From: Symbiodinium natans
Lineage: Eukaryota; Sar; Dinophyceae; Suessiales; Symbiodiniaceae
Direction: 5' to 3'
DNA length: 64,000 bases
NCBI GenBank assembly: GCA_905221605.1
Contig: CAJNDS010002157.1
Span: forward strand, 792,001 to 856,000
This document shows, piece by piece, positions 180 to 63,889 of this stretch (positions within the stretch are counted from its first letter, which is position 1; each line of letters starts with the position of its first letter). The position numbers and the translations under genes were made by a program. The notes under the pieces were generated by a model, which saw only the letters and a program-made list of their open reading frames with translations, was not told the origin of the DNA and searched no databases.

Positions 180-367
180 TGGGCCGGTGCTTTGGCCTTC
201 ACCGGCTGATGCTCCTTGCGGCCCGCCAAGGATTTTACGAAGGCCTCCGCTGCGCCCTAAACCCTAAACCCTAAACCCTAAACCCTAAACCCTAAACCCT
301 AAACCCCTGGATCCATGTGGCCACGGAGGGCAGCAGATGCCATGGGACTTTGGCGGCCATTCAAGGA
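180..367 (-). CDS. two exons of an unrecognised split gene
   Basis: Exon 367-308 follows a tgcag acceptor and reads SLNGRQSPMASAALRGHMDP (20 codons). Exon 256-180 begins after tttag and reads GAAEAFVKSLAGRKEHQPVK and on. The 51 nt between them (307-257) are pure TTTAGGG heptamers on the sense strand, and the frame continues in phase across them. The downstream end at 180 assumes a GA donor. Product not recognised; it may belong to the same gene as the exons at 3216-2027. Confidence 0.5.
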
Positions 368-1368
368 CTGCAGGTGAAGAGTGGGTTCCAACGTCCACCG
401 ACGTGAGTGACTTGTCAAGTTTAGGGTCAGGAATTTAGGGGTTTGCGGGCCTGGGGGTTTAGGGTGTAGGGTTGGGGGTTAGGGTTGTGGGGTTTAAGGT
501 TCATGGTCTAGGGCATAGGGTCATGAGCATGGGACGGCCCGAAGTGCAGTTGTTACTGATATCATTCGTTTCAGGGTTTTTGGGTTTAGGGTGTGTGCGG
601 GTTGGGGGGCGTTAGGGCTTCCGGGTTCATCTGCACCTTGGTGAAAAAAAAGTGCAGACCAAAGAGTTGCAGGAAGAAGCTGTGCTAAGCCCAAAACTAC
701 CCTAAACCCTAAACCCTAAACCCTAAACCCTAAACCACAAGCCCCAACTCCCCAAAGCTTTGAGGCCCCAAAGCCCCAAAAGACTCCCTGAACCCTTTCA
801 CTATCGGTCTTATAGGGTTTAGGGTTCAGGGGTTGAGGGTTTAGGGTTGAGGGGTTGAGGGGTTTAGGGTTTAGGCTTTGGGGTTTAGGGTATCCACGGT
901 CAAATCCCTTACTTGCAAAAAGACCCTATGTGAAAAAGCCTGTCAACTAAACCCTCAAGCCCCAACCAAGCCCTGTAAAGCCAATCAACCCCAAACCCTC
1001 TACCCTAAACCTTAAGCGGCTAAGCGGCAAACCCTGAACCCTACACCCTAAACCTGAAACCCTAAAACCCGCAACCTCAAACCCTAAACCCTTAAAAACA
1101 ATCTTAAGCCGAACGCCAAAAGACAGACAAGCCTGTAAAGCGCATAATTCGAAGCAACCCTTTGGCATCCCGCCGACTCAAACCCCAAACCGAAAAACTC
1201 GAAGCCCCTCACACACCCAAAGACCCCTCGCAAAAGCCCCAAAGCCCCTGAAGCCAGAACCCCTGACTTGAACCCCCCCCCACCCTAATCCCCAAATCGC
1301 TAGACCCTACCCAAAACAAAATCCTGAGCCCCTGAAGCCCCCAAACTGCGCAACGCCTCAGGGGCCTA

Positions 1369-1489
1369 CAAGGAGGGGCCCCCTTACTATACCAAATATA
1401 GTTAAGGGACTTATAACCTCATTTAGGATCCTTATAACCTAGTTTAGGGTCCTTAAAACTCTACCTATAACCAGGGGGGCCCCTCCTTG
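1369..1489. mobile_element. TA-flanked MITE, family A copy 1
   Basis: About 121 bp with terminal inverted repeats starting CAAGGAGGGGCCCCC. TA dinucleotides at 1367-1368 and 1490-1491 look like a target duplication of Tc1/mariner type. The same terminal sequence and interior recur at 53207-53326 and, split, at 31818-34849. No coding capacity. Confidence 0.75.
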
Positions 1490-2026
1490 TAAGGTTGAGG
1501 TTCTAGGGAGGTTTAGGGTGCGCCCAGAGACGTCAAAAAAAATGTTCTGCCGACAGGCTCGTGCTCCGCATCCAGGAGTGCGTCGAAGAGACCTCAGACG
1601 CTGGGGTGAAAAGTTGAGGGTTCTCCAAGGTTGTCAATGTTCTAGGGGTTTAAGTGCGCTTTAACTGTTCTTTCAGTTTGTTGTCTTTGTTAACAGGGTG
1701 GTTAGGGTCTTTCCCGGGTTCCAGGGTAGGTGTTTAACGGTTTTTCCAGCTTGTGCCCGGGCTTACGACATCGACCCTCAATGGTAGAGTGTGTGTGTGT
1801 GTGTGTGTCTTTTTTGGTGGGGGAGGGTGCCTAAGTTGTTCTTGCATACTATACAAGCATACGAGCCAACATAGTGAGCACACACACACACACAAAAATG
1901 AAAACACACTACAAAACGCACCAACATGTGGGAGCAGAAAAGCAACGATGGGCAGGTGTGCAAATAGGACCATGTTTTAGCAGGAGGGCTGCAAGCAACA
2001 ACTGCCGTTAGGATGATGAAATACAC

Positions 2027-3216
2027 TTTGGCCTGGTGTGGTACATTGGGCTACGGCTACACTTCACCCAAACCCTGAAGACCTAAACCTTAAACCCTCA
2101 ACCCAAAACCCTAAACCCTAAACCCTAAACCCTGAGCTGCAGCATGCAAAGATGCTGCACGACATTGCGCTTCAGCCACATTTAGTGCAACACATGCTTG
2201 GAGAGCGAACAGGGCCTTCACTAGCACCGAGCCCTAAACCACCAATCCCCCTAAACCCTAAACCTAAACCCTCAACCAGCAACGACACAGGAGCTCATCG
2301 TGCGTAGCATGTGCACATACCACGTGTCATCTTTCTCTCGCACGAAGACCTGGAGCCTAAACCCTAAACCCTAAACCCTGATAAACCCTGATGAGCAGAC
2401 CCTTTTTGCGCATCATGCCATCAATAAGTCGAAAGATCAAGTCATAGCCTTGACGCTTGGGATGGCCGTTGTTGTCTTTCATGTGGCGCCTCGTGAAGGT
2501 GGCGGGGTCGCTGTACTGCAGGACATCCAGCGTGTTATTGCGGAAGCGCGACGCAACTTGGAGATACTGACCTTCCAGGGGAACGCTCGAGGTGCGATTC
2601 GGAATCAGCGTCCGCCGCGCAATGCACCAGAAGAGGAACTTCAAGTTTTGGAATCGTGAGGTGAGGTGTGCCAAGCAGGAGAGGCCGTGACTCACCATCA
2701 CCTCGTTGTCTTCCTTGTTCACCTTCTCCTATGCAGAACTGGGAACCAAAAATGATAATCCCTGCTGTGTCCTAGGAATGAAAGTGCCCAAAAACTACAA
2801 CTTGGAACCCTAGCAAAAAATGAATTACGGTACCCAAACAAATCGAAATTTTCCCAAATATCCCTAAGTCGCCCTGATGACGTTGTAGGCGCTTGGGGGC
2901 AAGTCAAGGAAAAGGTCGCCCGGCGTCAAAGAATCCACGTAGCGGTTCCCGAAGTACCAGTTGGGAACCATGAGCACCTCGACCCAATCGTTACCTAGAA
3001 AAAAAGGGTGCCCCTTTTTGCTTCAAAGGAGCTTCTGAAGGGAACCTAAATCTTAAAACAAAACAGAATAAGGGAACCTAAACCCCCTAAAACAAAAAAA
3101 GGGAAATAAGCACCTGTACTCTGGGGCCTCGGCACAGTGTGACTGTAAGCGCTGCAGGCCTCCTGCAAGAGGTCCAGCGTCGACCGGTGGAATACCGGAA
3201 GGGCCTCCAAAGCCAT
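2027..3216 (-). CDS. unrecognised split gene, 5' part, at least five or six exons
   Basis: Exons in order: 3216-3114 (ATG, MALEALPVFHRSTLDLLQEA), 2994-2873 (NDWVEVLMVPNWYFGNRYVD), 2728-2387 (includes VPLEGQYLQVASRFRNNTLD), 2355-2278 (LQVFVREKDDTWYVHMLRTM), 2233-2132 (SVLVKALFALQACVALNVAE), perhaps 2082-2027. Junctions keep phase. Intron 1 is GT-AG and intron 2 is GC-AG. Introns 3 and 4 are only 31 and 44 nt and are made of TTTAGGG-like heptamers. Exon 3 could itself contain an intron at a gtgagt donor. No known domain recognised; the 3' end is not located. Confidence 0.6.
3003..3110. repeat. intronic repeat shared with 58195-58290
   Basis: The stretch gggtgcccctttttgcttc followed by gaagggaacc and a purine-rich tail resembles 58195-58290. 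It lies inside intron 1 of the minus-strand gene starting at 3216. Probably a short mobile element; ends are not defined. Confidence 0.35.
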
Positions 3217-3409
3217 GCAATCCTTAGCTGCTGAGTTCACAAGCCCCCCAAAAAGTGTACACCTTCAGACTTTCAGTTCTATAGGGGATTCTAGTATCCC
3301 AACAGAGTAAAGTGCACATCTTCAAACTTTTCAGTTCAAAAGAGGATTCTAGTATCCCAATAAAAATTAAAGAGTACTCATCCAGCTACTAAGAATCAAC
3401 TCCCTGCAG

Positions 3410-5271
3410 CTTGCGGAGATGGGGGCCCAGGACCTCAATGGTTCCCCTTGCTACCCCCCTCTGGGGTTTAGGGTTTAGGGTTTAGGGTTTCGGGCCCTCT
3501 ATACTACCACACGCTAAGTTCCCCCCTCATACTTCTAAGGCCATTTGGGGATAATGAAAAGCCGAATTAGGGTTCGTTCAGGGGGGCACCTAGGGGTGAG
3601 GGGGGGGATATAGAGGGCCCTAAACCCTAAACCCTCAACCCTCAACTCTCAACCCTCAACCCTCAACCCTAACCCAACCCATCTAAGCACCTCATACTCC
3701 ATCTTCGCCTCCTCTAGGTGGCGGGGAAGAAAATGCGATGGGCCCAGGAGAAACACCGAGCCGCGCTGGGCCTGGACTTTGAAAGGAACAGAAAGAAGTT
3801 TAGGGTTTAGGGTTTAGGGTTTAGGGTTTAGGGTTTAGGGTTTAGGGTTGGGTTCGGCCGGTCCACACTAACAGTCACCACCAGCAGACCCACAAATAAA
3901 AGCACCCGGTAAATGCCAAAAAATTGACTGAGATTCCTGCTATTCCTGGTGCTATTCCTGGTGCTATTTCTGGTGCTATTTCTGGTGCATTTTTTTGTGC
4001 TATTCCTGGTGCTATTTCTGGTGCTATTTTTTGTGCTATTGTTTGTGCTGTTTCTGGTGCTATTTTTTGTGCTATTTTTTGTGCTATTGTTTGTGCTATT
4101 TCTGGTGCTGTTGCTGGTGCTATGTGACTAACAATCACCATCAGCAGACCCACAAAAAACAGCACCCGGTAAATGCTAAGCTGCTAAAATTGACTGGGAT
4201 TCCTGGTGCTATTTCTGGTGCTATTGTTTGTGCTATTTCTGGTGCTATTTTTTGTGCTATTCCTGGCGCTATCTCTGGTGCTATTTTTTGTGCTATTGTT
4301 TGTGCAATTTCTGGTGCTATTTCTGCTGCTATGTGACTAACAGTCACCACCAGCAGACCCACAAAAAGAAGCACCCGGTAAATGCTAAAATTGACTGGGA
4401 TTCCTGGTGCTATTTTTGGCCTGTGTGTTATAAGGCCACGGCGTTATTTGACTGTTAGTGTGGACCGGCCGAACCCAAGTTTAGGGTTTAGGGCGAACCA
4501 GGGAGAAAAAAAGTATAGACTTCTATCTATTTCAGCATGGTTCCTTTCAGGTACCAAAAAGCATAGACTCATACTTCATAAAAGGCTCCTTTAAGGTACA
4601 GGTATTTAATAGAAAAAAGTGTTAAAGCATGGTGCTCCAAACCCGGGGGGCAGGAACTGGAAGGTGGAGATCTTCTGGCCGCCACGCAGCAGGCGGGGCA
4701 ATGAAACTGGAGCTGAAGTACACCTCAAAAGTTTAGGGTTTAGGGGTTAGGGTTTAGGGTTTGGGATGTTCCCGCTTATACTAACAGTCCTTGATAGGGA
4801 TGAAAATTGGGGGGGGGGGGGGGGTACTATAATCCCGATCAAGGACTGTCAGTGTAAGGGGCATCCCACGATACACCTCAGCTACAAAAGAAAGGTAGGC
4901 AAGGGCGAGGGATGTCGAAAGTCGGAAGCCTTTTGCCGTGGCTTAACGGGCTTGTGATGGAACCTACCCTTCTGTTGTATACTGTACGTTAGATTCTTAT
5001 TTCAGTATGTCTATAATGGGGGTTTATGAAAATATGCCCCCCCCCCCCCCCCCAAATAGCAGGATCCCGTTGTAGCAGGGACCCCAATAAAGCACCCCTA
5101 ATTCGGAAGCCCCCATACCCAAAACCCTAAACCCTAGACCCGAAACCCTAACCCTAATGTATTCTAACACAAAGAAACGAAAAGAGTACTACCGTGGGAT
5201 CCTGGACACCATGCCTAGACTCGAGGCCATGAGCACCACTCGCCTTTCTGAAGGCCTCATCCCTAGATTCG
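3410..5271 (+). CDS. unrecognised split gene, four exons
   Basis: Exons 3410-3463 (LAEMGAQDLNGSPCYPPL, after ctccctgcag), 3718-3797 (VAGKKMRWAQEKHRAALGLD and on), 4654-4730 (NWKVEIFWPPRSRRGNETGA) and about 5185-5271 (YYRGILDTMPRLEAMSTTRL). Phases match across the junctions (0, 2, 1), and donors in TTTAGGG tracts read as GTTTAGG. Intron 2 hosts the inverted-repeat element at 3848-4478; intron 3 hosts a family B element. It may continue downstream, for example SMVDPESLRDVPPGLE near 5393. Basic, charged protein; family not recognised. Confidence 0.6.
3494..3624. mobile_element. palindromic MITE-like element in an intron
   Basis: gggccctctata at the left and tatagagggccc at the right form inverted ends of a roughly 130-bp unit bounded by heptamer tracts on both sides. 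It lies in intron 1 of the plus-strand gene at 3410-5271. Confidence 0.55.
3848..4478. mobile_element. non-autonomous DNA transposon with 29-bp inverted ends
   Basis: Terminal inverted repeats of 29 bp are perfect (TTGGGTTCGGCCGGTCCACA at the left end, its complement at 4450-4478). Both sides abut GTTTAGGG, which may be an 8-bp target duplication or simply the repeated target. The inside holds three copies of a roughly 65-bp unit (near 3873, 4132 and 4340) separated by minisatellite of GGTGCTATTTCT-type units. Frames through it are open in all phases and encode only low-complexity IPGAISGAIFCAI-like repeats, so no protein is called. Confidence 0.8.
4761..4868. mobile_element. family B MITE, copy at 4.8 kb
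   Basis: Inverted ends TTGGGATGTTCCCGCTTATA and ...AAGGGGCATCCCA surround a G14-type homopolymer. One of ten dispersed relatives, each about 80-150 bp. Confidence 0.7.
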
Positions 5272-8891: not shown

Positions 8892-9258
8892 ATGGGTGCC
8901 GGGAAGTCAAGGGATCCTACCTCGCCTCATCCCGAACCCCCTACACCATAAACCCCTAAACCTACATTTTCTAAGGGGTTCTTGCAAAAAGGTGCCCCAA
9001 AACCCTAGGCCCTAAACCCTAAACCCAAAACTCAAAGGTACAACCTTGGCAAGGAAGCGTTGCTTGAAAGTGCGTCAGCAACTTCGGATCCACCTTACAA
9101 GCAAGGCAAGAAGCAGAAGCAACTCAGGGTTTAGGGTTTAGGGTTTAGGGTTTAGGGTTCAGGCAGGGTTTCATCCCGAAATCTCACAGGAGCCGAGGCG
9201 CCTTGCCATCGCCGAAGCGGCGGAGTGTTTCGGCAAAGGCCGCAAAGTCCTGGCATAA
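8892..9258 (+). CDS. complete small split gene, about 68 aa, three exons
   Basis: Exon 1, 8892-8912, has ATG right after gttgctcag and encodes MGAGKSR. Exon 2, 9039-9128, encodes YNLGKEALLESASATSDPPY plus a Lys/Gln-rich end. Exon 3, 9163-9258, encodes AGFHPEISQEPRRLAIAEAA and more, ending in TAA. Intron 2 (9129-9162) is 34 nt, GT to AG, and consists only of heptamers. Intron 1 has an ambiguous AGG junction. No family recognised. It starts at a divergent tract flip and stops at a convergent one. Confidence 0.6.
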
Positions 9259-9562: not shown

Positions 9563-9883
9563 AGTCATCGATACCAAAAGTAGCCTAGGAATGAACGGGC
9601 AGTTTAGAGAGGTAACTATGACGGAACCCAAACACTCAACAAAGGGCAAGGGCCTACTCTGGGTCCTAGGCAAACTTACACGGAATTCGACATACTTTGC
9701 GAAGGTTCCAGGAGCAAATCCTCGTAACCCGGAAGTCTAACCCACAGACCCAAATCCCGAGACCCCCAAAACCGAGACCCTCAACCCTCAACCCTAAGTC
9801 GAAAACCCTGAAACCCTCAAACCCCAAATCCGAAACCCGAAAACCCGAACCCCGAAACACTAAACCTCACCTACGTCATCCCC

Positions 9884-9900
9884 ATATTGATTGATTGATG
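9884..9900 (-). repeat. LINE 3' tail, tetranucleotide repeat
   Basis: Minus strand reads atcaatcaatcaat at the end of the element, about 110 bp after the ORF stop. Short terminal tandem repeats instead of poly(A) are common in several LINE clades. Confidence 0.6.
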
Positions 9901-10006
9901 GACAAAGAAGTCCCTGCAGCAGACAGAATTGCTGCATGGGCGCGAGAACGTCCTAGTTCGGCGCAACGCCCCGAACTGTACGGACTTCTCACGAGGCCCC
10001 CGCACG

Positions 10007-23109: not shown

Positions 23110-23144
23110 AGTTAAGGGGTTTGGGGTTCAGGGTGGCTCTTTAG

Positions 23145-41650: not shown

Positions 41651-41678
41651 ACCCTGCAGCCCTGACATAATTGAAAAC

Positions 41679-42477: not shown

Positions 42478-42553
42478 CCTCAGCACGCCTCAGTCGGGAG
42501 CGGCGCAAGCTCTCGCACAGCAGCGGCAGCTGTGAAAGGGGGAGCCTGGCTTG
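42478..42553 (+). CDS. exon-like segment, frame ambiguous
   Basis: All three plus frames are largely open, e.g. RERRKLSHSSGSCERGSLAC and HASVGSGASSRTAAAAVKGG. Acceptor ccccctcag or cgcctcag; TTTAGGG tract follows. Confidence 0.35.
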
Positions 42554-42971
42554 TAGGGTTTAGGGTTTAGGGTTTAGGGTTTAGGGTTCTGAGGTTCCCT
42601 AAGCTTCCCTAAGGTTCCCCAACTGGCGCGCCAGGCCTAAAGTTGCCCAGCAGTGGGGTTTCGGGTGTGTAGGGTTTAGACTCCAGGGTTTAGGGTTTTA
42701 GGGTTTTAGGGTTTTTTTTGGTTTTAGGTTTTTTTGGGTTCTAGGGTTTTAGGGTTTTGGGGCTTTAGTGTTTTAGGGTTTTAGGGGTTTAGGGTTTTAT
42801 AGGGTTTTAGGGTTTAGGGTTTAGTGTCAGAGCTTTGACCACCTGCTTGAGGCCTCGAAACCCCAAACCCCCTGAGCCTCCTCCTCGCCCGAAACCCCAG
42901 AACCCTGAAACCCCTGAAGCCTTTTTTTTCCTATGCGATTACATCGCTCTAGCGAAGGGAAAAGGGGGAAA

Positions 42972-43572
42972 CTATCTGCACCCTAGCTGCCAACGGCGTG
43001 GAAGGCCGCCCAAACACTGATGAAGCTTGAGAGACCCACCACAACCCTTGCACTTCCAGCCTACGGCAGCCCTGTGCATGTCATGGGAAACATGGACGCC
43101 GAAAAGTCTGAGGTCGTGACCGGTACCGTAACACGGCAAGGCAGCAACTTGGAGCATCTTACTACGGGGCCAGTTGACAGAAACCCTGAGACCGCAAGCA
43201 AGGCAAAGCCTGCCACCAGGGATGACCAGGGTGAGTGACCCTCAGATGCTCCAAGACTTGCGGCTTGGTGGCCTGTTTGGGGCCCTGAATTTGGCCCTTG
43301 GTCACACCAGTGCGAAGCCAAAACTGGGCACAGTTTATCAAGTGCCTCTGAAGCTCCCAAGTGCGACAGTCCAACCACTTGTTGTACTCTCTAGCAAGCC
43401 GATGCTCCAGCTTGGCTTCGATGGCTCTACTTGCAGCCTCTGCAGCTTCATCGGCCAGTTTATTGGCCTCGAAAGCCCAGTGAGGCAAACTACTGTCCGA
43501 GGGGGCCTGTTGGTGCGACCTTATCCAGTAAAGCTGGATACGTTTCCCCTGAAGCCCCCAACCCCTGTCCAA
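42972..43572 (-). pseudogene. retroelement RNase H fragment with C-terminal Cys motif
   Basis: The frame from 43572 reads IQLYWIRSHQQAPSD, then WAFEANKLADEAAEAASRAI, the H/N/D part of an RNase HI-like domain (W-x-x-SH ... N-x-x-AD-x-A), and stops at 43162. A shifted frame (to 42972) continues with HVSHDMHRAAVGWKCKGCGG, a CxxC-bearing tail. No RT or endonuclease nearby, so this is a truncated, frameshifted remnant of a retroelement different from the LINE at 10-16 kb, which lacks RNase H. Confidence 0.65.
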
Positions 43573-43709
43573 AGCCCGTAACCCTCAAAAGCCCTAGAAG
43601 CCTTATCCCTAAACCCTAAACCCTAAACCCTAAACCCTAAACCCTGAACCCTGAACCCTGAACCGTGAACCCTGAACCCTGAACCCTGAACCCTGAACCC
43701 AACCCCAAC

Positions 43710-43973
43710 CCATGGCCTCCGCTAGCGCCTGGGCGCGCGCCAGCGCCGGGGGAAGGGGTGCCCCCTCGTCCAAGCTCACCTCGGCTGGCAGGGCTCCCGC
43801 ATACCCACCCGCAAGACTCCACAGGCTCTCAACCCGAATAGCCATCCGGCCTTGAACCCTGAACCCTAAACCCTAAACCCTTTCGGAATCCTCAAAACGA
43901 TGCCCCTCAAGGACCCCTCCCCAAAAAAAAGGAAAAGGGGCTAAATTAAAGCACTCAACGTACCCTTAGTCAT
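43710..43973 (-). CDS. 5' end of an unrecognised split gene, two exons
   Basis: Exon 1, 43973-43964, is only ATGACTAAGG (MTK) before a GTACGTT donor, preceded by a gtcctcag acceptor that could receive a spliced leader. Exon 2, 43850-43710, continues in phase as GRMAIRVESLWSLAGGYAGA, LPAEVSLDEGAPLPPALARA, QALAEAM, ending at a GTTGGG donor. Very high GC3. Acceptor of exon 2 is gggttcaag in heptamers. Confidence 0.6.
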
Positions 43974-45700: not shown

Positions 45701-45958
45701 AAGGTTCCAGTGTTTGTGTCGGATGTGTGGGCTTGGGGCTTCTACAACGTCCTTCAAAGCTGTGGCGTGTGGGAGGGGGTGTGGGTCACATGGTTCACAC
45801 CCTTGACTCGTCTCTCTCTCTCTCTCTGTCTCTGTCTCTGCCCCTCTCTCCCATGTGCACAAGAGAAGCCCAATTCGGGTTTATGGTTCAGGGATATTCA
45901 GGGCTTAGACTCACAGCGCCTCATTTTTCGAAGACGCATGGCCGGGCTTTTGCTTTGA
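45701..45958 (+). CDS. two plus-strand exons
   Basis: 45701 to about 45778 reads KVPVFVSDVWAWGFYNVLQS, CGVWEG after gctttacttgtag. 45917-45958 reads RLIFRRRMAGLLL, TGA after gcttagactcacag. A (TC)n tract lies between. Minus alternative for the first: LKDVVEAPSPHIRHKHWNLL. Confidence 0.45.
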   Translation, partial: KVPVFVSDVWAWGFYNVLQSCGVWEGVWVTWFTPLTRLSLSLCLCLCPSLPCAQEKPNSGLWFRDIQGLDSQRLIFRRRMAGLLL

Positions 45959-46214
45959 AGCCCTCTGTGTGGCTGTCAGATCAACTTCCCTCCCCCGAAT
46001 CGTACTTAACCCCCTTCACCAACTGCATGATACTCGGACCCCTAAGTTTGTACCCCTTTTCGTTTGTACCCCTTTTCGAGGCTTCCCTTAGTATACTCCT
46101 AAACAGGGCCCCTATCTTCCCTTAGGAATCTTGAGAAGGGGTCCCCAAACCCAAGGGTACAACCTTAGGGGTCCAAGGTAGACCCCCAGGAATGCACGTG
46201 GGCCGCCGCGGACC

Positions 46215-47147
46215 CTAAGTTCGGCTCGCGCTCGCGCACCGGCCCCTGGGCAGAGCGAAGCTCCACCTCTCGCGCCTCGCGACCTGCCGGCGCCAGCTTG
46301 CGCCAAAGGACACGCCCACGCACTCCAGGAGGAAGGCGGGCCTACTGACGCCCATGGCGCGCCAGCGTCTGTTGAGGAGGGCCAGCTCGGCCTCGATATC
46401 CAGGCATGAGGCGCCACCTAAGAAAGTTCCGAGGGTCACATGGGGCATGAGGTTCTTTTCCTGGGGAACTACCACTGGGCAGCCTTCTTGCGAGAGGTGT
46501 CGTTCAATCCCAGCGGCCACCTTCGAAATCTTGTGCCTGGACTCGGCATCCGCCTCGATGACGATGCTAATCTCCTTGTCGTTGGGCTGCGAGCATCTCA
46601 CTTCATCAAAACGTACTTCGAAGGGCTCGAAGAAGTCATCTTGCCATGTCTCAAACACATGGCCGATGGTCCTGAGCTCTTCAAGGCTTTGGCAGCAACC
46701 GTAGATGACGGCAACGTGCGCCTCCTTGGGGCTAGCCGCATGATAACGGCAAGAGGTGTCGTTCCTTTGCTTGAAGTGGGCAGCTACCTCCTCGTACTTT
46801 GTCACAACAGCTTCCCAGAAATTATCACTGGACACGTTGACTGAATCTGGCTTTCGCCGATTGGGATCGAAACCGAACCCGGAGATGAAAGTCCACCAGC
46901 TGTCAACAACAGCTGCTTCTGGGAGCTCGGCTGCCTCCCGGTGTGGCTTGCAATCAATGGGACAGCCCCAGCGATGGGGATACATCGGGTCCTTGCGGCA
47001 TGCCCCGGGCGTTGAGGAGCTGGCTGCCGTGACAGGGACAGGGTCCAGCTGGCTGTGCCCAAGCCACATGCAGACCGCAGCGGCGCATGCGGCCGAGCCG
47101 ACGCCCAGCAAGAATCCCCAAGACACGTGGGATCCAGGGCGCACCAT
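46215..47147 (-). CDS. uninterrupted gene, membrane-anchored 2H phosphoesterase-like protein
   Basis: 310 codons from the first ATG after an in-frame stop. Residues about 9-30 (WGFLLGVGSAACAAAVCMWL) form a signal anchor or TM helix. Two His motifs lie about 90 residues apart, HVAVIYG (near 144) and PHVTLGTF (near 236). Between them a helix-strand pattern (FEVRFDEVRCS, ISIVIEADAESRHKISKVAA) matches the LigT/2H phosphoesterase layout, in which two H-x-T/S-hydrophobic motifs act on cyclic or 2'-5' phosphodiesters. The first motif has Ala instead of Thr/Ser, so activity is uncertain. Unlike its neighbours it has no heptamer introns and lies in a 2.4-kb stretch free of tracts. Confidence 0.65.
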   Translation of the reverse strand: MVRPGSHVSWGFLLGVGSAACAAAVCMWLGHSQLDPVPVTAASSSTPGACRKDPMYPHRWGCPIDCKPHREAAELPEAAVVDSWWTFISGFGFDPNRRKPDSVNVSSDNFWEAVVTKYEEVAAHFKQRNDTSCRYHAASPKEAHVAVIYGCCQSLEELRTIGHVFETWQDDFFEPFEVRFDEVRCSQPNDKEISIVIEADAESRHKISKVAAGIERHLSQEGCPVVVPQEKNLMPHVTLGTFLGGASCLDIEAELALLNRRWRAMGVSRPAFLLECVGVSFGASWRRQVARRERWSFALPRGRCASASRT

Positions 47148-47695
47148 GGGAAATTTGCCCCGTCTGCAGATACTTTGCTCTGCTGCGACGTACTAGGTCG
47201 CCCAGAGGGTGCCCTTTTTTTGTAGAATGGGGTTTCAAGGGAGCGCAGGCTGCAGGTACTAAGTGCAGGCTGCAGGGCATCTTGGAAACAGATCAAAGGA
47301 AAACCCGACGGAAACCCCACGCAGTCCGATACTTTAGATTGATCCTAAGCACCTCTCTAAGTGTGGCTTGCTGGCTTATTTCTAGCAATTAGGCCGAGAG
47401 TGTTTCATCTACCGGGCTTTGCTGCTTATAACAAAGGCCTTCGGATTTCCCGTCGAGGGTAACGGACGGATGACATGACTCCTAGGAGCCATGGAAACCC
47501 TAGCAGCCTCAGAAACCTCAAAGAAACCCAAGAAGCCCTTTAAATCCTGTGCTAAACCCTCTGAAGCTTCTCAACCTGATAAACGCCATAAACCCCATAC
47601 ATCCTATCAGCCCTAAAGCCATGATCCCTAAACCCCCTTCACCCCAATGAAGCCAAAAACCTTGCAACCCTCAAACGCCGAAGCCCAACTCGACC

Positions 47696-50525: not shown

Positions 50526-50769
50526 GCCTCGGAGAAGGCAGCCTCAGCCTCGGACCCATCCTCTGACGAGGACGTGGCTTCGGATGGCCCTGAAACCCCT
50601 CTGAAGACATTCGTAAAGGGTTTAGGGTTTAGGGTTTAGGGTTTAGGGTTTAGGGTTTAGGGTTTAGGGTTTAGGGTTTAGGGTTTAGGGTTTAGGGTTG
50701 AATGTCAAGGGCCCTCAGCCCTACAACCCAAAATCCTCTGCTGCCCAGGCGCTGAGGGCGGCCTTCTAA
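50526..50769 (+). CDS. 3' end of an unrecognised split gene, acidic protein
   Basis: Exon about 50526-50618 (ASEKAASASDPSSDEDVASD, GPETPLKTFVK) joins in phase 0 to 50710-50769 (GPQPYNPKSSAAQALRAAF, TAA). The 91-nt intron is almost entirely TTTAGGG. The Ser/Asp/Glu-rich stretch suggests a nuclear or phosphorylated acidic region. The stop lies at a convergent tract flip. Confidence 0.6.
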
Positions 50770-50909: not shown

Positions 50910-50987
50910 GTAAGCCCTCCAGTCCTTGCTCGACAGCTTGGCGCGGAGGTCTCCCCGCTCCTCGCGGGGCCAGGCCGCCCTCAGCGC
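50910..50987 (-). CDS. exon of an unrecognised gene
   Basis: 26 codons, ALRAAWPREERGDLRAKLSS, KDWRAY, between cctcctggcccag and a TAC/GTAAGG donor. The first 22 nt match, in inverse orientation, the end of the plus gene at 50743-50764 (AQALRAA in both). Confidence 0.6.
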
Positions 50988-51178
50988 CTGGGCCAGGAGG
51001 ACCCGATTTAGTAACCCTAAACCCTAAACCCTAATTAAACCCTAAACCCTCAACCCTAAACCCTAAACCCTAAACCCTGAACCCTAAACCCTAAACCCTA
51101 AACCCTAGACCCTAACCCTAAACCCTAAACCCTAAGCCCTAGCCACAAACAGCCCGAGGTTTTGGGGCTTACGTAAGG

Positions 51179-53148: not shown

Positions 53149-53206
53149 AGTAAGGTCTATAGGCGACAAAATCAGGGCTTAGGGCCACCATTATCCCTCA
53201 GCCCTA

Positions 53207-53326
53207 CAGGGTGGGGCCCCCTAGTTATAAGTAGAGTTATAAGGGCCCTAAATTGGGTTATAAGGGCCCTAAGTTAGGTTATAAGTCCCTCAACTACAGT
53301 GAGTATAGTAAGGGGGCCCCACCCTG
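53207..53326. mobile_element. family A MITE, intact copy
   Basis: CAGGGTGGGGCCCCC inverted ends, TA on both sides (53205-53206, 53327-53328), 120 bp. The centre repeats ttataagggccctaa. Confidence 0.8.
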
Positions 53327-55707: not shown

Positions 55708-56156
55708 CTAAGCCGCTCAGGCCCCTCAGGGCGATCTGGCTGGGGCTTGGTAGGGTAGAAGCTACAGACCCGGATGGAGACTTGATGCGCTGACAGACAT
55801 GCCTTGGGATGTTCCCCCTGATACGAACAGGCCTTATAAGGATTACAGTAGGGGGTACGCTAGTCCCAATCACGGACTGCTAGTATAAGGGGGAACATCC
55901 CAACACATGCCGAAGGTTGCAATGCCCAATGTGCCTGGGTCCCGACTAGGCAGAGTTCAAGGCTGATAGGTCTGAGGGCCTCGCACGACGCCTCACCCAA
56001 GAAATTCCAAGAACGCCAGAAACGCTGAGCCATTCTATGTAGGTCTGCGAGATATTCGTCCACATGTCCCCTAGATATGCCCCAAAAAAACAATATCTTC
56101 AACCCTAAGCCACAATGAGCCGGGGCACGACTGTGGAGAGGATGGCATACACGGGC
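55708..56156 (-). CDS. unrecognised split gene with a MITE as intron
   Basis: Exons about 56156-56104 (PVYAILSTVVPRLIVA frame), 56070-55905 (GHVDEYLADLHRMAQRFWRS, WNFLGEASCEALRPISLELC, then TQAHWALQPSAC) and 55789-55708 (RIKSPSGSVASTLPSPSQIA, LRGLSGL). The 55-codon middle exon follows a strong acceptor (ggggcatatctag). The intron 55904-55790 begins GTTGGGATG and ends tctgtcag, and is almost entirely a family B element; phase 0 is kept. Family not recognised. Confidence 0.6.
55802..55903. mobile_element. family B MITE acting as an intron
   Basis: TTGGGATGTTCCCCCTGATA and its inverse end TATAAGGGGGAACATCCCAA. The minus-strand copy supplies the GT donor side of intron 55904-55790. Confidence 0.75.
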
Positions 56157-57227: not shown

Positions 57228-57353
57228 AGGTTGAGCATCAACAAACGGCCGGGTGGCTTGCGCTTCTGCGCTTCCTGCTTCTGCGAAGGCAGGAGAGGGA
57301 GGATCACCAAGCCAAGCACAGAGACGCAGTAGGTCCTCAGCCGCAAAATCCCC
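57228..57353 (-). CDS. exon of an unrecognised gene
   Basis: 42 codons in phase 0 (GDFAAEDLLRLCAWLGDPPS, PAFAEAGSAEAQATRPFVDA, QP) from a tttag in CCCTAAA sequence to a GTAGGG donor. Very high GC3. One of the clearest exons; family unknown. Confidence 0.6.
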
Positions 57354-57356
57354 CTA

Positions 57357-57425
57357 AACCCTAAACCCTAAACCCTAAACCCTAAACCCTAAACCCTAAA
57401 CCCTAAACCCTAAACCCTAAACCCC
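57357..57425. repeat. CCCTAAA array
   Basis: About nine units upstream (sense direction) of the exon at 57353. Confidence 0.85.
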
Positions 57426-57519
57426 ACCCTAAAATGGCCCTAAGCCCTTTAAACCCTACGCCCCTGTTGAGTTCACTGCCTAGTGAAGGTGTCAGTGGCT
57501 TGAGGGTTTAGGGTTTCAG

Positions 57520-57643
57520 AGACCACTTCGGCTATGGCACAGTAGAAACGATGCAGCCACCGTCCACCGAAACGCCGGCGTGTCCTGCAGTGCTGCAGCA
57601 GCGTAGGTGGGGACTTGAGATTCTCCAGGCGTTGCGGTTGAGG
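57520..57643 (+). CDS. exon of an unrecognised gene
   Basis: DHFGYGTVETMQPPSTETPA, CPAVLQQRRWGLEILQALRL, R after a gggtttcag acceptor; a TTTAGGG tract follows. High GC3. Confidence 0.55.
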
Positions 57644-57712
57644 GGGATAGTGGTTTTAGGGTTTAGGGTTTAGGGTTTAAGGACTTTCGGATCTGCATTT
57701 ACTTTCTGGCAG

Positions 57713-57781
57713 GAAGTAGTGCTTCCATGTGGGGCACCTGCCTGTTCAAGCAGAGGCCACCAGAAAGACCCTAAACCCTAA
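57713..57781 (+). CDS. terminal exon, stop supplied by heptamers
   Basis: EVVLPCGAPACSSRGHQKDP, KP, TAA after tttactttctggcag. Stop codon is part of CCCTAAA. Probably the same gene as 57520-57643. Confidence 0.5.
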   Translation, partial: EVVLPCGAPACSSRGHQKDPKP

Positions 57782-57850
57782 ACGCTAGTGACAGGGACCA
57801 GAAAGCCTCGCTGAGTTACAAAACCCTCAGCCCTGGAAAGGCCCTCAACA

Positions 57851-57961
57851 CTTGGCTGCTCTTAGCAGGGTAGCTGTACATTTAATTCTTAGCTGCCTTC
57901 TTAAGAAGCCCAATAAACCCAAAAAGGCTAAAGATGTAAAGTTCTAGTAAAGCACCACAAA
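57851..57961. repeat. 112-bp dispersed repeat, copy 3
   Basis: Third copy of the repeat at 48255 and 49816. Confidence 0.8.
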
Positions 57962-58079
57962 GAACAAGAGGGTGCGGGAGAAAGCCAAGGTCCATAGGGC
58001 TTGGGGCGTGAACACCGGCCCGGCTCCAGGTGTAAACCCTAAACCCTACACCCTAAACCCTAAACCCTACACCCTAAAC

Positions 58080-58634
58080 GTCCTTCAAGGTTGAAGAGAC
58101 GGTGATTTGGGGACAAGAGCGGTCCTTGACGTAGTTGATCCTCAAGTAGAGGTCTGGTTTGAAGAGCCTGGGGATGTCTCCTAGACCCAAGAGTGAAATA
58201 ACCTAGGAATAAAATAAGGGTACCCTTTTTGGTATAAAGGGGTTTAAGAAGGGAACCCAAACCCTTAAAAAAAAAGGGAATAAGGGCCTTACACCGGCTC
58301 CTAGTCTTAGACTCCCGACTCCGAGGCCTTGTGCGTTTCGGCTGAGGCTCTGACAGCCATGTGTGCACCACAGAGTGTTCTTTTATGTACGCAGAGTGAT
58401 TTCCTTCGGTTTTAAACAAAACACAGCAGGAACTCGGAAAAAAAAAAAAAACACGTCCTACAGAAAGCTGTAGTAAGGGCATCCGGAAGAATGACTTTTG
58501 GCCGGGGGCGCCGGGTTGCAACCTGTTTGCGAACCAGGTCGCGCGAAAACCTGGTTGGAGATCATGACGGAGAGCGGCTGCCCGAGGGACTTGATCGTCA
58601 GGACCAAGCCAATCACCAGCGCCTTCAGCGAGGT
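58080..58634 (-). CDS. unrecognised split gene with a membrane-like exon
   Basis: Exon 58634-58551 (TSLKALVIGLVLTIKSLGQP, LSVMISNQ; acceptor attccctataag, donor CAG/GTTTTC) contains a likely TM helix. About 58347-58296 reads EPQPKRTRPRSRESKTRS (donor GTGTAAG). 58180-58080 reads DIPRLFKPDLYLRINYVKDR, SCPQITVSSTLKD (acceptor tgggtctag, donor GAC/GTTTAGG). GC3 is very high in the first and last. That all three belong to one gene is inference. Confidence 0.55.
58195..58290. repeat. intronic repeat shared with 3003-3110
   Basis: gggtacccttttt, ggtttaagaagggaaccc and an A-rich run; see 3003-3110. Confidence 0.4.
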
Positions 58635-59189
58635 CTTATAGGGAATAAGGTAAGGGGCTTTGGGTTTAGGGTTTAGGGTTTAGGGTTTAGGGTTTAGGGT
58701 TTAGGAACCCTAAAGGCGTAAAACCCTAAACCCGAAGCCCGCGCGGGCTTTAAGGTTCCAACCGTCCCCAAACCCACAACGAAGGCTCAAAGAGTCATGG
58801 AAACCTTAAAATGTAGAAACGCCCCAGAAGCCCCTCAAGAACCCTTCATCCCATCCCACCATCCGAGATCCTTAAGACTCTCAAAGTCTGAACCCCAAAA
58901 AGACCCCCAAACACCTAGAGCCTCAAGGTTTGGACCTAAGGCCCCAGAAAACCCTCTGGACGATGACCTTCCGAGCCCTCAGTCCCTGAATGTGCCAGGG
59001 TCCCATCCTTATCTGCGGGCATGCTGGGGTTAGGATTTCGGGTGTGTTGAGGTGTACATCTTCGCGCTTGGGGTTTAGCGTTGGCAGTGTGGAGCCTGTA
59101 TACCCTAAACAAGAACCCCTAAGAGCCTCGGGTGCTGCTGGTTTCTCCGTTCATCAGCCCTCGACCCTAACCCTTAAGCCCGTAAACAA

Positions 59190-59419
59190 GTGTGCTGGGT
59201 GGCAGTGTTGCCCTCGTCCGCGAGCTCATTCCTGAGCTGCTCCCGGGACCCTCTATCAACACAGAGCCTTCCAGATTTTTCAGTGGTCCCTTGCAAACGG
59301 ACAACCAGCCACGTGAAGAAAAAACAAATGTACAGGTTCGCTTACAGCAAGAACCAAGCAAAACAAACAAAAGTGACAGCAGAACCAATCTTGGTAGCCC
59401 AGTAACCATATTACAATAA
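59190..59419 (+). CDS. long exon ending inside a family C element
   Basis: VLGGSVALVRELIPELLPGP, SINTEPSRFFSGPLQTDNQP, REEKTN and on, 75 codons, with the stop (TAA) inside the adjoining MITE at 59395. The first 40 codons have coding-like bias; the rest may be intron after a GT donor. Confidence 0.45.
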
Positions 59420-59499
59420 GGGCACCCTTTTCTGGGTTGGCTATTTGATAAGGGAACCCATAACCCCAAAAAAAGGGTAAAGGGTACCACTGGGCTACC
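59395..59499. mobile_element. family C MITE, copy 3
   Basis: tagcccagtaaccatattac left; aagggtaccactgggctac right. Confidence 0.7.
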
Positions 59500-59985
59500 A
59501 TGAGAAAACTCAAAGCTATGCTCTTAAGGTCCCCGCCCCCCCCACCCCCCCCCGGCCCCAAATAGAATCCATGTAGTTAAGGGCAAAATATTGGGTAGGG
59601 GAGGTGATATGAGGCACTCTGGGTCCTGGGTTCCCGAGGATACCGGATTGAGACCTAGCAAGAAAATGCTCAAAATGGGGGGGGGGGGGGGGGGACCCTC
59701 TAAGGGACCTTAGGGTTGGGTTGTTTAAGGGTTATTTAGGGGCTTCTTCGGTATCGGAGGTAGTAGGGGGAATAAGATAAAGGGTCCCTTCTAGGCGTCC
59801 CTTCTTATACCCCTTAAAATCCAGCCCGGGAACACCATGAAGATGTACTAAAGGGGCCTGAATAATTAGAACAGGTTTGTCTTTTTTATCATTTTTTGTT
59901 TGGGGGGGGGGGGGGGTTCTTATATAATTGCATATAAAGGAGACCACAAGGGAACATGATTAACCCTAAACCCTAAACCCTATAC

Positions 59986-60028
59986 CACAGCCCAGGATCA
60001 CCATGAAGATGTAGACTAACTCCGTCAT
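59986..60028 (-). CDS. first exon with a hydrophobic N-terminus
   Basis: ATG at 60028, MTELVYIFMVILGC, then a G/GTATAGG donor. cctgag acceptor just before the ATG. A diverged copy of part of it lies at 59820-59842. Divergent tract flip. Confidence 0.5.
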
Positions 60029-60351
60029 GGCCTCAGGAACATTCCTCGGCTTTCTGGCTTCTGCAAGGCGTGTTGACGGGTTTAGGGTGGGCTTCTTAGG
60101 GTTTAGGGGTTTAGAGGTTTAGGGTTTAGGGGTTAGGGTTAGGCGTTAGTAGGTGTTCGGCTATGGACCTGCGGCTCTAGGAGGGTGGGCTTGGGGTTGA
60201 CGGTTGCTGTTTACGTTGGGTTCAGGGTTTTGGGGGTGTAGGGTTTCGGGAGTGGGGTTGAGGCTTGTGTACCCTAAACCCGAAACCCAAAACCCCTAAA
60301 CCCTAAACGAAGCCCTGAACCCCTGCAAAGCCGAAACCCCGATATGGCAAG

Positions 60352-60453
60352 TTCTCTAAATTATGGTCCCTTTCTGGGTACCCTAAAATAAGAGGGGCCG
60401 CCTTAGAATAAACACCCCAAAAGGGACCATAGCGTTAGAGAAGTGACCATATG
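60352..60453. mobile_element. family D MITE-like element, copy 2
   Basis: ttctctaaattatggtccct left; agggaccatagcgttagagaa right. Confidence 0.65.
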
Positions 60454-60623
60454 AAGCAAGGTTCATATTTCTTGTATCCCCAAGAAACACCAAATATGTA
60501 CACTCACCAATATTGCAAAGGAACCTTGTATATATGTATATATATATATACATACACTCACCAATAACAGAAGTATAAAACCTGCTTCATATGTGGTTGT
60601 GCCCTTTTGGTTCAGGGCTTCAG

Positions 60624-60710
60624 GTGAAGCTTCCCGCCAATGCTGAGAAGTTGCTGCGTGAGGGGCTCCCCGAGGTAGAAGTACCTTCTGTAAGAGGGGT
60701 TCGACCCTAA
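60624..60710 (+). CDS. terminal exon of an unrecognised gene
   Basis: VKLPANAEKLLREGLPEVEV, PSVRGVRP, TAA after tggttcagggcttcag. High GC3 and natural composition. Confidence 0.55.
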   Translation: MKLPANAEKLLREGLPEVEVPSVRGVRP

Positions 60711-60764
60711 ACGCTAAACGAAACCCAAAACCCTAAACCCGAATTAAAGCTTCTGCAAGATGGG

Positions 60765-60866
60765 GTTCTCTAAACTGTGGCCCCTCTGTCCGGGTTTCCA
60801 TTGCAGTCCGAAGCCCTCGATTGAGGGTATGTTTAAAGGGGCACCATTTCAGGGACCTGCCCATAA
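60765..60866. mobile_element. family D MITE-like element, copy 3
   Basis: ggttctctaaactgtggcccct left; aggggcaccatttcagggacc right, degraded. Confidence 0.5.
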
Positions 60867-61026
60867 AGAGCTCATACCTAGACCCCATACCTAGACCCCC
60901 AAAACAGTGAGAATAATGGCGCTTAAACCGTAAACCCTAAACCCTGAACCCTGAACTCTTAAACCATCTTTAACCTTATGGGTGTTTTGGGGGGCCAGGT
61001 AGGGCTTAGGAAGCGTCCCCGAAAAG

Positions 61027-61045
61027 GTGGGGGGGGGGGGGGTGT

Positions 61046-61081
<36 letters not shown>

Positions 61082-61218
61082 GGGGGGGGGGGGGGGGGGG
61101 GGGGTGGGGGGGGGGGGGGGGGGGGGGGGTGGGGGGGTTGTGGGGGGGGGTGGGGGGGGGGGTGGGGGGGGGGGGGGGTGGGGGTGGGGGGGGGGTGGGG
61201 GGGGTGGGGGGGGCGGGG
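61027..61218. repeat. G-rich tract with T interruptions
   Basis: About 190 bp of almost pure G in sense, poly-C antisense. Frames are poly-Gly or poly-Pro. Confidence 0.95.
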
Positions 61219-61479
61219 GTTACCAAGGAAAGGAAACGAGCCAGAGCCAACGTTCGGGAAAACAACCGCCGTTTGCGATTGCAATGTATGCGAGATTTAG
61301 GGTTTAGGGTGTTTTTTTTGTAGGCTTGAGGGTGTCGGGAAACTGATATTTTTGGGTCCCGAAACCGAGCCACGCCCTAAACCCCTAAACCCCTAAACCC
61401 TAAACCCTAAACCCTGAACCCTGAACCCTAGGACACTGAACCCTAAGCCCTGAACCCTGAACCATAAACCCTGAACCCC

Positions 61480-61533
61480 AGGGCGCTGATTCCGGACGAT
61501 GTCGAAGATGGTCAGGAACTGGGGGATGCAATC
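61480..61533 (-). CDS. exon of an unrecognised gene
   Basis: 18 codons, DCIPQFLTIFDIVRNQRP, after tgagtccttcag, ending at G/GGTTCAGG. Nearly every third base is G or C. Confidence 0.55.
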
Positions 61534-61658
61534 CTGAAGGACTCAGGGGTTTTGGGTTAAAGGTTGAGGGTTTAGGGTTTAGGGTTAGAGGTGGGTTTAG
61601 GGTTTAGGGTTTAGGGTTTAGGGTTTAAAGTTTAGGGTTTTGGGTTTAAGGTTACGGG

Positions 61659-61866
61659 TTAGGGGTGGGTGTGCCCCCACGCGCCCGGGCCCTCTGCGTG
61701 CAAAGAGTCGAGGACGTTTGCGATCATGACGGTGGCAAAGAGGATTTTCCGCCAGCTGGCGTTGAGAAGCCATTTCCTGAGTTCTCTAAACCCCAAACCC
61801 TAAACCCTAAGCCCTAAACCCTAAACCCTAAACCCTTGCCGCTAAGTCATGGCGAAGTCGGCTCAT
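61659..61866 (-). CDS. complete small two-exon gene, 49 aa, membrane-like
   Basis: Exon 1, 61866-61835: ATG, MSRLRHDLAA. Exon 2, 61776-61659: KWLLNASWRKILFATVMIAN, VLDSLHAEGPGAWGHTHP, TAA. The 58-nt intron is heptamer sequence ending aactcag, and AG plus G make the junction Arg. A TM-like helix lies at ILFATVMIANVL. WRKILFAT faintly recalls the BT1 transporter family, but that is too short to claim. Confidence 0.6.
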
Positions 61867-62091: not shown

Positions 62092-62222
62092 TCAGTTTGT
62101 GCAGCCCAAGTTCTGAGCCACCCAGCTACCAAAAACAGTCAGAAGAATACCAAGGACCTTGCTCAGCTGCCTGGCGCAGAAGCCAACTCGGGTTGCGTTG
62201 GCGGCACAGGGTTTGTGGGTGT
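62092..62222 (-). CDS. possible terminal exon with TM-like segment
   Basis: CAANATRVGFCARQLSKVLG, ILLTVFGSWVAQNLGCTN, TGA. It abuts a family B element at 62227. The plus strand has a 66-codon ATG frame (62025-62225) of less natural composition. Confidence 0.4.
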
Positions 62223-62226
62223 TAGG

Positions 62227-62321
62227 TTGGGATGTTTTCTAACAGTCCTCAATCGGGATTATAATAGGGGGTACTAGAATCCCGATTAAGGACTGTTAGT
62301 TAATAAGGGTTTACATCCCAA
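62227..62321. mobile_element. family B MITE, copy at 62.2 kb
   Basis: TTGGGATGTTTTCTAACAG and ggtttacatcccaa; interior gtactagaatcccgattaagg. Confidence 0.7.
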
Positions 62322-62754
62322 GTGTTCGGGTTCGGGATCTGTGCAAGAAGGGCTGTGGGATGATTTGTTTGCAGGGTTTTGGGTTGACGTTTCGGGGTCT
62401 ACGGTCCTGAGTGTCTGAATAACTTCTATAAACGCCAAACCCTGAACCCTAAACTAAACACTCCAACTACAAGACCCTGAGCCTAACTGACCCGAAGCCC
62501 GAAGAACCTGAGTTTTAATTTGATACGGGCGTAGGCTACTAGGGTTTCGGGTTTGGGGGGTGGGAGAGGGGGGGGGGGGGGGGAACGCTTAGTTTGGGCA
62601 GCTTGCACGAGAGAATCATAGGGAACACAAGGGGATATTCTTGATAATCAAAGCAATACCTATAAACCCTACGCAAAGGCTTCTCTGTAGTACCATTTTG
62701 TATACTAGCAGCCCCTACAACTAACCCAAAAAGAAACTAGTTACATTAGAGCCT

Positions 62755-63057: not shown

Positions 63058-63198
63058 CCCGGGTTAAGGTTCAGGGTTTAGGCTTTAGGGGTTAGGGTTT
63101 AGGATGTAGGGTTTAAGGTTCAGGGACTGGGGGGGGGGGGGGTTAGGGTTAGACTTTGATATAAGGTTCAGGGTTTGGGATGGTTTAGGGCTTCCACC

Positions 63199-63304
63199 TT
63201 GGGATGTTGCCCCTTATACAAACAGTCCCTAATAGGGATTATAGTAGACCCCCTATTATAATCCCTACGAAGGACTCTCTTCGTACAAGGGGGGGACATG
63301 CCAA
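63199..63304. mobile_element. family B MITE, copy at 63.2 kb
   Basis: TTGGGATGTTGCCCCTTATAC and gtacaagggggggacatgcca. Confidence 0.7.
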
Positions 63305-63325
63305 CTTCCACCCCTACAGCCTTCT

Positions 63326-63445
63326 GACCCTAAACCCTAAACCCTAAACCCTAAAACCTAAACCCTAAACCCTAAACCCTAAACCCTTAACCCTTAAACC
63401 CTAAACCCTAAACCCTCGACCCTAAACCCTAACCCTAAACCCTAT
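63326..63445. repeat. CCCTAAA-type array
   Basis: About 16 units with indels. Confidence 0.85.
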
Positions 63446-63484
63446 ACCTCTGAGAAGTCCGAGGTGCAAGCCCTACCCAGGTAC

Positions 63485-63565
63485 CCGCACTCGTGGAGAA
63501 GCCGTGGAGGGTTTCGGCCAAGAAGACGAAGAGGGCCACCGAGCAGAAGGCCTCTACCAGGGTGA
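63485..63565 (-). CDS. exon encoding a membrane-like helix
   Basis: TLVEAFCSVALFVFLAETLH, GFSTSA between tgctctaaaag and a G/GTACCTGG donor. GC3 close to 100 percent. CCCTAAA on both sides. Confidence 0.6.
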
Positions 63566-63827
63566 CTTTTAGAGCAGAACTTCCCCTAGACCCTAAACCC
63601 TAAGCCCTAACCCTAAACCCGAAGCCCCAAGCCCTAAACCCTAAACCCTAGACCCCAAGCCCTAAACCCTAAACCCTAAACCCCAAGCCCTAAACCTTAA
63701 ACCCTAAACCCTAAGTCCTAGGCCCTAAGTCTTAAACCCTAAATCCTAAACCCGAGTCCTTAGAACCCTGAAGATGCTGTAGGGCTCAGCCTAAACTTCT
63801 TCATTGCATCGAAACGAAAAACCCAAC

Positions 63828-63889
63828 TGCCACGTCAGAGAAGACGTCACTGGGGCGCCTCTCAACCACAAGAAAGCGGTTTCCGACAT
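63828..63889 (-). CDS. first exon of an unrecognised gene
   Basis: ATG at 63889, MSETAFLWLRGAPVTSSLTW, CA/GTTGGG donor. Divergent flip (TTTAGGG array to the right). Its phase does not match 63565-63485 directly, so an exon may be missing or the frame may run on to TAG. Confidence 0.5.

Follow-up and report, generated by a model that had tools for sequence, protein, structure and literature searches.

The 64,000-nt stretch of DNA analyzed here (the window) is crowded with short arrays of the telomere-type heptamer TTTAGGG, set in both orientations among islands of other DNA. From its sequence the window is probably intron-rich, gene-bearing nuclear DNA of a eukaryote that may be a dinoflagellate or another alveolate, in which interstitial telomere-type arrays accumulated in introns and in intergenic DNA. 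At least one array appears to sit within an intron whose splice sites lie outside the array, a placement supported by homology to PDZ domains. Interstitial telomere arrays are known; so high a density of them in intron-rich DNA may be new. The initial annotation had proposed that the heptamer tracts are themselves introns, lying between codon-biased islands. Exon-like islands do exist and one array lies inside an intron by homology, but the part of the proposal in which arrays supply the splice sites was not supported.

The word TTTAGGG occurred 432 times and CCCTAAA 572 times in the window. Exact two-unit heptamer matches covered 6,828 bases. With 14-mers that allowed up to two mismatches to a heptamer array the cover was 14,289 of the 64,000 bases (22%), compared to 156 bases (0.24%) in one first-order Markov control. 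With up to four mismatches it was 22,540 bases compared to 4,311 in the Markov control. This fall-off over the mismatch levels is a graded decay and was counted in favor of interstitial arrays. The merged tracts numbered 258 (113 plus, 145 minus) with a median length of 45 nt, and the 257 islands separating them had a median length of 104 nt.

65-63959, both strands: heptamer tracts of TTTAGGG / CCCTAAA and variants, 258 by mismatch-tolerant 14-mer matching

The presence of telomere-type heptamers throughout the window was thus borne out. Interstitial telomeric sequences are tandem arrays of the telomere unit at internal sites, and the tracts are of that kind, with other DNA between them. Tract-free stretches were 9867-16274, with long frames resembling long interspersed nuclear elements (LINEs), 31744-34931, a GC-rich nested element, and 45894-47621, which holds an intronless frame. 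The heptamer pattern was found at five loci in viral contigs and in at least 119 stretches of genome contigs, and the 80 stretches listed all carried bacterial titles. More than four separate heptamer clusters were seen in none of the loci retrieved from these viral and genome contig searches.

The intron with homology support lies in a PDZ gene on the minus strand. The PDZ motif was first spotted by eye and then searched with profiles.

19414-19495, minus strand: PDZ gene, exon-like segment 1 (NIPRLVEGVPSTAYEEFKNLIVVAVRE and the first base of the next codon); island codon z score of 3.6; aligns with Scribble PDZ once joined
19220-19413, minus strand: predicted intron (by homology) of 194 nt, GC..AG, with a sense TTTAGGG array near the 5' end and an AT-rich 3' part
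19369-19402, minus strand: pure heptamer array within the 194-nt intron, in sense orientation (CCCTAAA on the plus strand)
19147-19219, minus strand: PDZ gene, exon-like segment 2 (DGPAQRCGVRDGFRLMSIGGTAAT...), then AAG followed by GTAGGGTTTAGGG; 14.9 bits to PDZ_6 alone; donor read by eye
18294-18354, minus strand: PDZ gene, tentative segment 3 (RHAHGRVGMAASAPWRLTYII); adds about 1-4 bits to the scores of several PDZ chains

The segment upstream of the 194-nt gap ends in ...EEFKNLIVVAVRE and segment DGPAQRCGVRDGFRLMSIGGTAAT resumes beyond it. When 19413-19220 was removed, a PDZ_6 match extended over profile positions 1-28 (21.5 bits, E = 1.9e-4), which is half a domain. Alternative joins gave 14.0 bits (a longer one, with four residues in place of one fewer) or no PDZ_6 match (a frame-shifted one). 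Nine decoys, in which other exon-like segments were joined instead, gave 13.2-15.7 bits. GT, GC, and GA donors from 19450 to 19360 were scanned against AG acceptors from 19300 to 19195. Only two joins in the scan were in frame and free of stops, both with a GC donor, and the other one, longer by one residue, scored 13.1 bits. The joined segments aligned through the junction with Scribble PDZ chains (E = 6e-4, 23 bits), compared to 17.0 bits on the same chain for the other join. This was the one case in which removal of a stretch restored a conserved protein across the junction. Because the PDZ match lengthens only once the array-bearing 194 nt are removed, the array is placed inside an intron. 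Both ends of this predicted intron lie outside the array: the GC donor precedes the pure array by 11 nt, and the CAG acceptor ends 149 nt past the array. Segment 3 barely moved the PDZ_6 score (21.6 compared to 21.0-21.1 bits for three alternatives). It would tentatively make 18355-19146 a second intron, with a sense array at the 5' end and an antisense array near the 3' end.

In dinoflagellates TTTAGGG telomeres, GC/GA-AG introns, and introners are described (PMC11453091, PMC7789003, PMC11508785), together with GC donors and intron-rich genes (PMC11453091). The GC donor of the PDZ intron therefore fits with dinoflagellate introns.

In full, the proposal is that telomere-type arrays became spliceosomal introns of about 34-110 nt that are nearly pure heptamer, a sense array providing GTTTAG donors and TTTAG acceptors. 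This is unlikely. The six junctions that had been called clean were re-read. Three of them (9129, 30499, and 31173) start with GT as listed, while the other three start with GG and need a shift of one to three bases. Two of the six (9129-9162 and 50619-50709) are codon-positive on both sides in a joined frame that stays open over 19 or more codons in each direction; the other four are not. The longest open joined frames of 307, 30499, 31173, and 61834 had a negative codon score on at least one side. Both sides were positive at 30499 (+2.8/+0.7) and 307 (+2.2/+0.6) only in frames open for at most seven codons on one side. The best junctions, and further candidates at the start of the window, are as follows.

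9129-9162, plus strand: GT..AG heptamer stretch of 34 nt, the best of the six junctions; codon scores of +3.4/+5.2; the second segment ends in a stop codon
50743-50764, plus strand: 22 nt that repeat 50972-50993 exactly in inverted orientation, within the supposed exon after 50619-50709
2387-2728, minus strand: long exon-like segment of a gene without assignment; codon score of 19.9; no Pfam match
2350-2386, minus strand: candidate heptamer intron of 37 nt, GT..AG, called from sequence, without homology; flank codon scores of 9.1 and 3.7
2277-2349, minus strand: exon-like segment VFVREKDDTWYVHMLRTMSSCVVA, called from sequence
2221-2276, minus strand: candidate heptamer-rich intron of 56 nt, GT..AG, read by eye, without homology

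Junctions 9129-9162 and 2350-2386 are codon-biased on both sides and in phase when read by eye, which is in favor of arrays acting as introns. Junction 50619-50709 also scored well (+5.7/+3.4). The segment downstream of it may be a rearranged fragment because it carries the exact 22-nt inverted copy, the source of which (50972-50993) is a nearby exon-like island. The candidate introns of 34-56 nt are far below the averages of 335-893 nt given for several dinoflagellates in PMC11453091, which counts against the proposal if the window is dinoflagellate DNA.

The initial annotation had relied on many islands joining in phase once a tract is removed. Such joins exist, but they are weak evidence because long arrays offer GT and AG in every phase. 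Because the 7-nt unit leaves a remainder of 1 on division by 3, each further unit shifts GT and AG by one codon phase, and three units are enough to cover all phases. Phase availability was tested on the pure sense arrays of the window, with GT and AG inside the array, over all nine frame combinations. In-phase joins were available in 32% of combinations for arrays of 21-34 nt (233/729, 81 arrays), 87% for arrays of 35-48 nt (195/225, 25 arrays), and 94% for arrays of 49-200 nt (195/207, 23 arrays). For arrays of at least 35 nt this also speaks in favor of array introns, as an insertion would be tolerated almost wherever it fell. A fixed rule that took the first GT and the last AG is crude; it misses the acceptor of 9129-9162 and calls both 9129-9162 and 2350-2386 out of phase. 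Under this rule no phase excess was found, with 41/127, 7/32, 1/15, and 0/8 joins in phase at codon thresholds of 0, 2, 3, and 4 where one third was expected. Exon chains built in the correct phase scored hardly above phase-shifted chains (minus strand 196.9 compared to 195.5 and 194.4; plus strand 108.1 compared to 106.5 and 105.7). In-phase joins were dropped as evidence for array introns on the strength of the chaining, the fixed rule, and the availability expected by chance. Arrays of period 7 are a warning in this respect, as in-phase joins across them prove little.

Splice sites at array ends and the order of the tracts also argue against the arrays being introns. There was no excess of YAG acceptors at the ends of merged C-strand tracts (70/220 after compared to 64/217 before). 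A first count within 12 nt of pure C-strand arrays gave YAGG at 20/174 after compared to 6/174 before, possibly confounded by adjoining G-strand heptamers. That excess was dropped, as merged tracts gave 25/220 after and 22/217 before within 14 nt. Neighboring tracts were alike in orientation in 109 of 257 cases compared to a permutation mean of 130 (P = 0.0046), an alternation above chance. Since orientation alternates, the arrays are not simply the sense-oriented introns of co-directional genes. Arrays as introns with their own splice sites are unsupported, given that the sole intron backed by homology uses a GC and a CAG outside the array and that no phase excess was found.

The islands had been described as codon-biased open frames. 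Their openness was not above chance, with 355 fully open frames in 154 islands of 30-170 nt compared to 360.5 ± 10.4 in dinucleotide shuffles, and open frames were dropped as evidence of coding. Codon content was scored with two models, the first trained mostly on long LINE-like frames and the second a generic model rich in G and C at the third codon position (GC3-rich). With the GC3-rich model the mean z of 158 islands of 40-220 nt was 0.60 ± 0.13, and 32 of them were codon-biased at P ≤ 0.05 where about eight were expected; the remaining 126 missed that level. The first model gave weaker values. The claim of codon bias is therefore retained for a minority of islands, which are exon-like. The initial annotation had set frames no more biased than shuffled controls as the outcome that would count against it; a codon excess was found with the GC3-rich model, but the first model showed little. 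In the heptamer-masked window 50 segments scored 7 or more compared to 16.9 ± 2.0 in 10 shuffles, part of the excess being made by homopolymer G. Strong islands favored the minus strand: at z ≥ 2.5 it held 18 of 23 (one-sided P = 0.0053), and at z ≥ 2 it held 22 of 27 (P = 0.0008). A run of such islands was found in the middle of the window.

37087-43852, minus strand: codon-biased islands 37087, 37561, 38511, 39127, 39352, 40624, and 43703, by codon scores, with heptamer tracts between them

These islands are probably exons of one or more genes without assignment. Within the same region islands 38215 and 38925 scored best on the plus strand.

Codon content also varied with the orientation of the flanking arrays. 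With the GC3-rich model, islands flanked as CCCTAAA-island-TTTAGGG had a mean z of 0.90 ± 0.25 (n = 50) compared to 0.08 ± 0.18 (n = 45) for TTTAGGG-island-CCCTAAA (permutation P = 0.0067). The former arrangement reads identically on either strand. Its islands were also tighter in length, with quartiles of 70 and 128 nt compared to 57 and 194 nt (74 islands per flank type). The pattern fits exons with C-rich repeats ending the upstream intron and G-rich repeats starting the downstream intron.

TTTAGGG contains the stop codon TAG and CCCTAAA contains TAA. No reading frame on either strand of a long array stays open beyond 21 nt, and an array of more than about 20 nt would put a stop into any exon that held it, so arrays would survive where they are spliced or untranscribed. 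Kept out of exons, they would leave the exons as islands, often of 70-130 nt. The arrays would arise at double-strand breaks, by telomerase or by copying of telomere RNA. They would then grow or decay by slippage and mutation and would persist where splicing or silence hides them. In mammals, interstitial telomeric sequences insert at double-strand breaks, with an effect on splicing left to test, and introns hold 31% of the human ones, the share expected of random insertion (PMC7215372). By analogy we infer that insertion at breaks may apply to the arrays of the window. The mammalian short interstitial telomeric sequences (PMC7215372, PMC6410037) are alike in being short internal telomere arrays, some of them intronic. 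The window differs in holding its 258 tracts within 64 kb and in the unit TTTAGGG, which is the telomere unit of dinoflagellates and plants (PMC11453091, PMC6410037).

Several points weigh against the favored explanation of intron-rich DNA with accumulated arrays. Homology backs one junction alone, over half a domain and below the Pfam curated cut-off of 27 bits. The orientation effect is model-dependent, since the first codon model showed none (mean z of 0.37, 0.36, 0.43, and -0.04 for -+, +-, --, and ++ flanks). Per-side orientation beside coding islands (z ≥ 2) was only suggestive, with antisense arrays upstream in 17/27 and sense arrays downstream in 17/27. Instead of telomerase, slippage, gene conversion, or transposition could have spread the arrays. 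Some exon-like segments may be pseudogene fragments. Exon-like segments other than those of the PDZ gene had no convincing Pfam match; 0/10, 2/10, and 1/10 matched in three query sets, all weakly (E of 0.07 or worse). A DUF4909 match (E = 0.0016, below its cut-off) was obtained with one joined query from 57.2-61.8 kb on the minus strand and was gone when the piece was searched alone.

These points bear on a reading in which most of the window is a non-genic graveyard: error-prone end repair would have joined decayed arrays, small inverted-repeat elements, and broken exon fragments, and few genes would still work. Such a graveyard is rather improbable. It would account for island openness equal to shuffles, for the 126 islands that miss the codon threshold, for the scarcity of Pfam matches, for the 22-nt inverted exon fragment beside an array, and for several families of repeated elements of about 100 nt. 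The 32 codon-biased islands and the preference of the strong ones for one strand argue against it, as does the half PDZ domain that is intact across a predicted intron. A 310-amino-acid intronless frame (46218-47147, minus strand) also argues against it; its match to the 2'-5' RNA ligase superfamily is weak (PF13563, E = 1.9e-4) and falls under the curated cut-off.

Intron-rich nuclear DNA remained the favored reading, and its nearest precedent is found in the repeat-rich (R) segments of Eimeria. There AGGGTTT / AAACCCT arrays rank with the commonest simple repeats and occur throughout DNA that bears genes. Of the frame-incompatible repeats of E. falciformis, 93% lie outside coding sequence (PMC3505466, PMC4287421, PMC9131526). 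In the R regions of E. tenella, TGCATGCA is listed as one of the abundant repeats (PMC3505466). The likeness lies in telomere-like heptamer arrays away from chromosome ends. That the window is itself coccidian apicomplexan DNA of the Eimeria type, with AGGGTTT as a genome-wide simple repeat, is very unlikely. CAG and AGGGTTT arrays, LINE elements, and a GC content of about 51-53% are described for Eimeria (PMC3505466, PMC4287421), and the GC content of the window is 51.9%. The window differs from these Eimeria descriptions, the only ones it was set against, in its 22% heptamer cover over 64 kb. It contained no copy of TGCATGCA in 64 kb and had CAG arrays of at least four units at one place only (14.4-14.5 kb), two features that make Eimeria an improbable source.

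Dinoflagellate introners and non-canonical introns (PMC7789003, PMC11453091) resemble the window in repeated elements as a possible source of introns, in inverted-repeat motifs at intron ends, and in GC/GA-AG introns as in the PDZ case. Introners are a family of similar introns with shared, matched boundaries. The arrays of the window have only the unit in common and differ from one another in length and orientation; splice sites are not enriched at the C-strand ends of the merged tracts. No description of introns made of telomere repeats was found in the available literature on telomeric repeats, introns, introners, and dinoflagellates, which included few subscription journals, so this absence is weak.

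The remaining features of the window were surveyed. Exon-like segments at 57228-61783 (minus strand) may resemble a folate-biopterin (BT1) transporter in its C-terminal part, a likeness that neither Pfam nor PDB confirmed. PDB searches with the LINE-like frame, the gene without assignment, the RNA-ligase-like frame, and the transporter-like join gave nothing better than E = 0.45. No relatives of the LINE-like frame or of the long exon 2402-2728 were found in viral contigs, and a plasmid search with 2380-3440 gave no match. Pfam searches of two 15-kb frames, in which stops were written as X, gave no useful match. Rfam and tRNA scans of the window were both empty.

The stretch at 9867-16274 is about 6.4 kb without heptamer tracts and holds long minus-strand frames of 532, 628, 211, and 456 amino acids that are LINE-like by eye. 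The LINE name rests on this reading, as the region (9.9-16.3 kb) had no Pfam match up to E = 10. CA, CAA, and CAG arrays lie at 14.2-14.6 kb. A minus-strand frame at 43240-43584 resembles a LINE RNase H domain by eye, with no Pfam match. A small inverted-repeat element (ends ACAGGGTGGGGCCCCCTTACTATA...) at 31816-34856 is interrupted by GC-rich DNA of about 2.9 kb, which has an inverted repeat of its own (32941-32959 / 34360-34378). Compact copies of the element occur at 1367-1500 and 53196-53326. An element of about 620 bp at 3853-4473, between heptamer arrays, encloses a 12-nt minisatellite and has inverted ends that extend over 25 bp or more. Runs of G or C reach 12 nt or more at 27 sites (for example 31420, 36413, and 61046), the longest being 35 nt.

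A family of elements of about 100 bp with ends like GGGATGTTCCCCCTTA was seen at 4768-4868, 18605-18690, 22951-23112, 55802-55904, 62222-62322, and 63196-63276. Further repeat families of about 100 bp were seen at 48254/49815/57850, 48543/59390/17872, and 40309/56518/59756. The families of about 100 bp may be introner-like. Two intron-like stretches on the minus strand (58205-58290 and 2995-3119) resemble each other by eye, which would be expected of copies of one introner.

Whether telomere-type repeats have been a source of new introns in this lineage is a separate matter, and it is doubtful that they have. On this view almost any sense insertion of at least five units, made at a break within an exon, could be spliced out in frame, with GT and AG in every phase within three units. 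Antisense arrays would give CTAAAC, a branch-point-like motif, and a pyrimidine-rich tract at the 3' ends of introns. If arrays do fill the introns of working genes so densely, the process that makes them would be a strong force on gene structure in the lineage. The question of whether telomere repeats can seed introns could then be tested directly in this organism, from RNA reads and population data. On the ordinary reading, too, the gene-bearing DNA of the window holds internal telomere repeats at high density.

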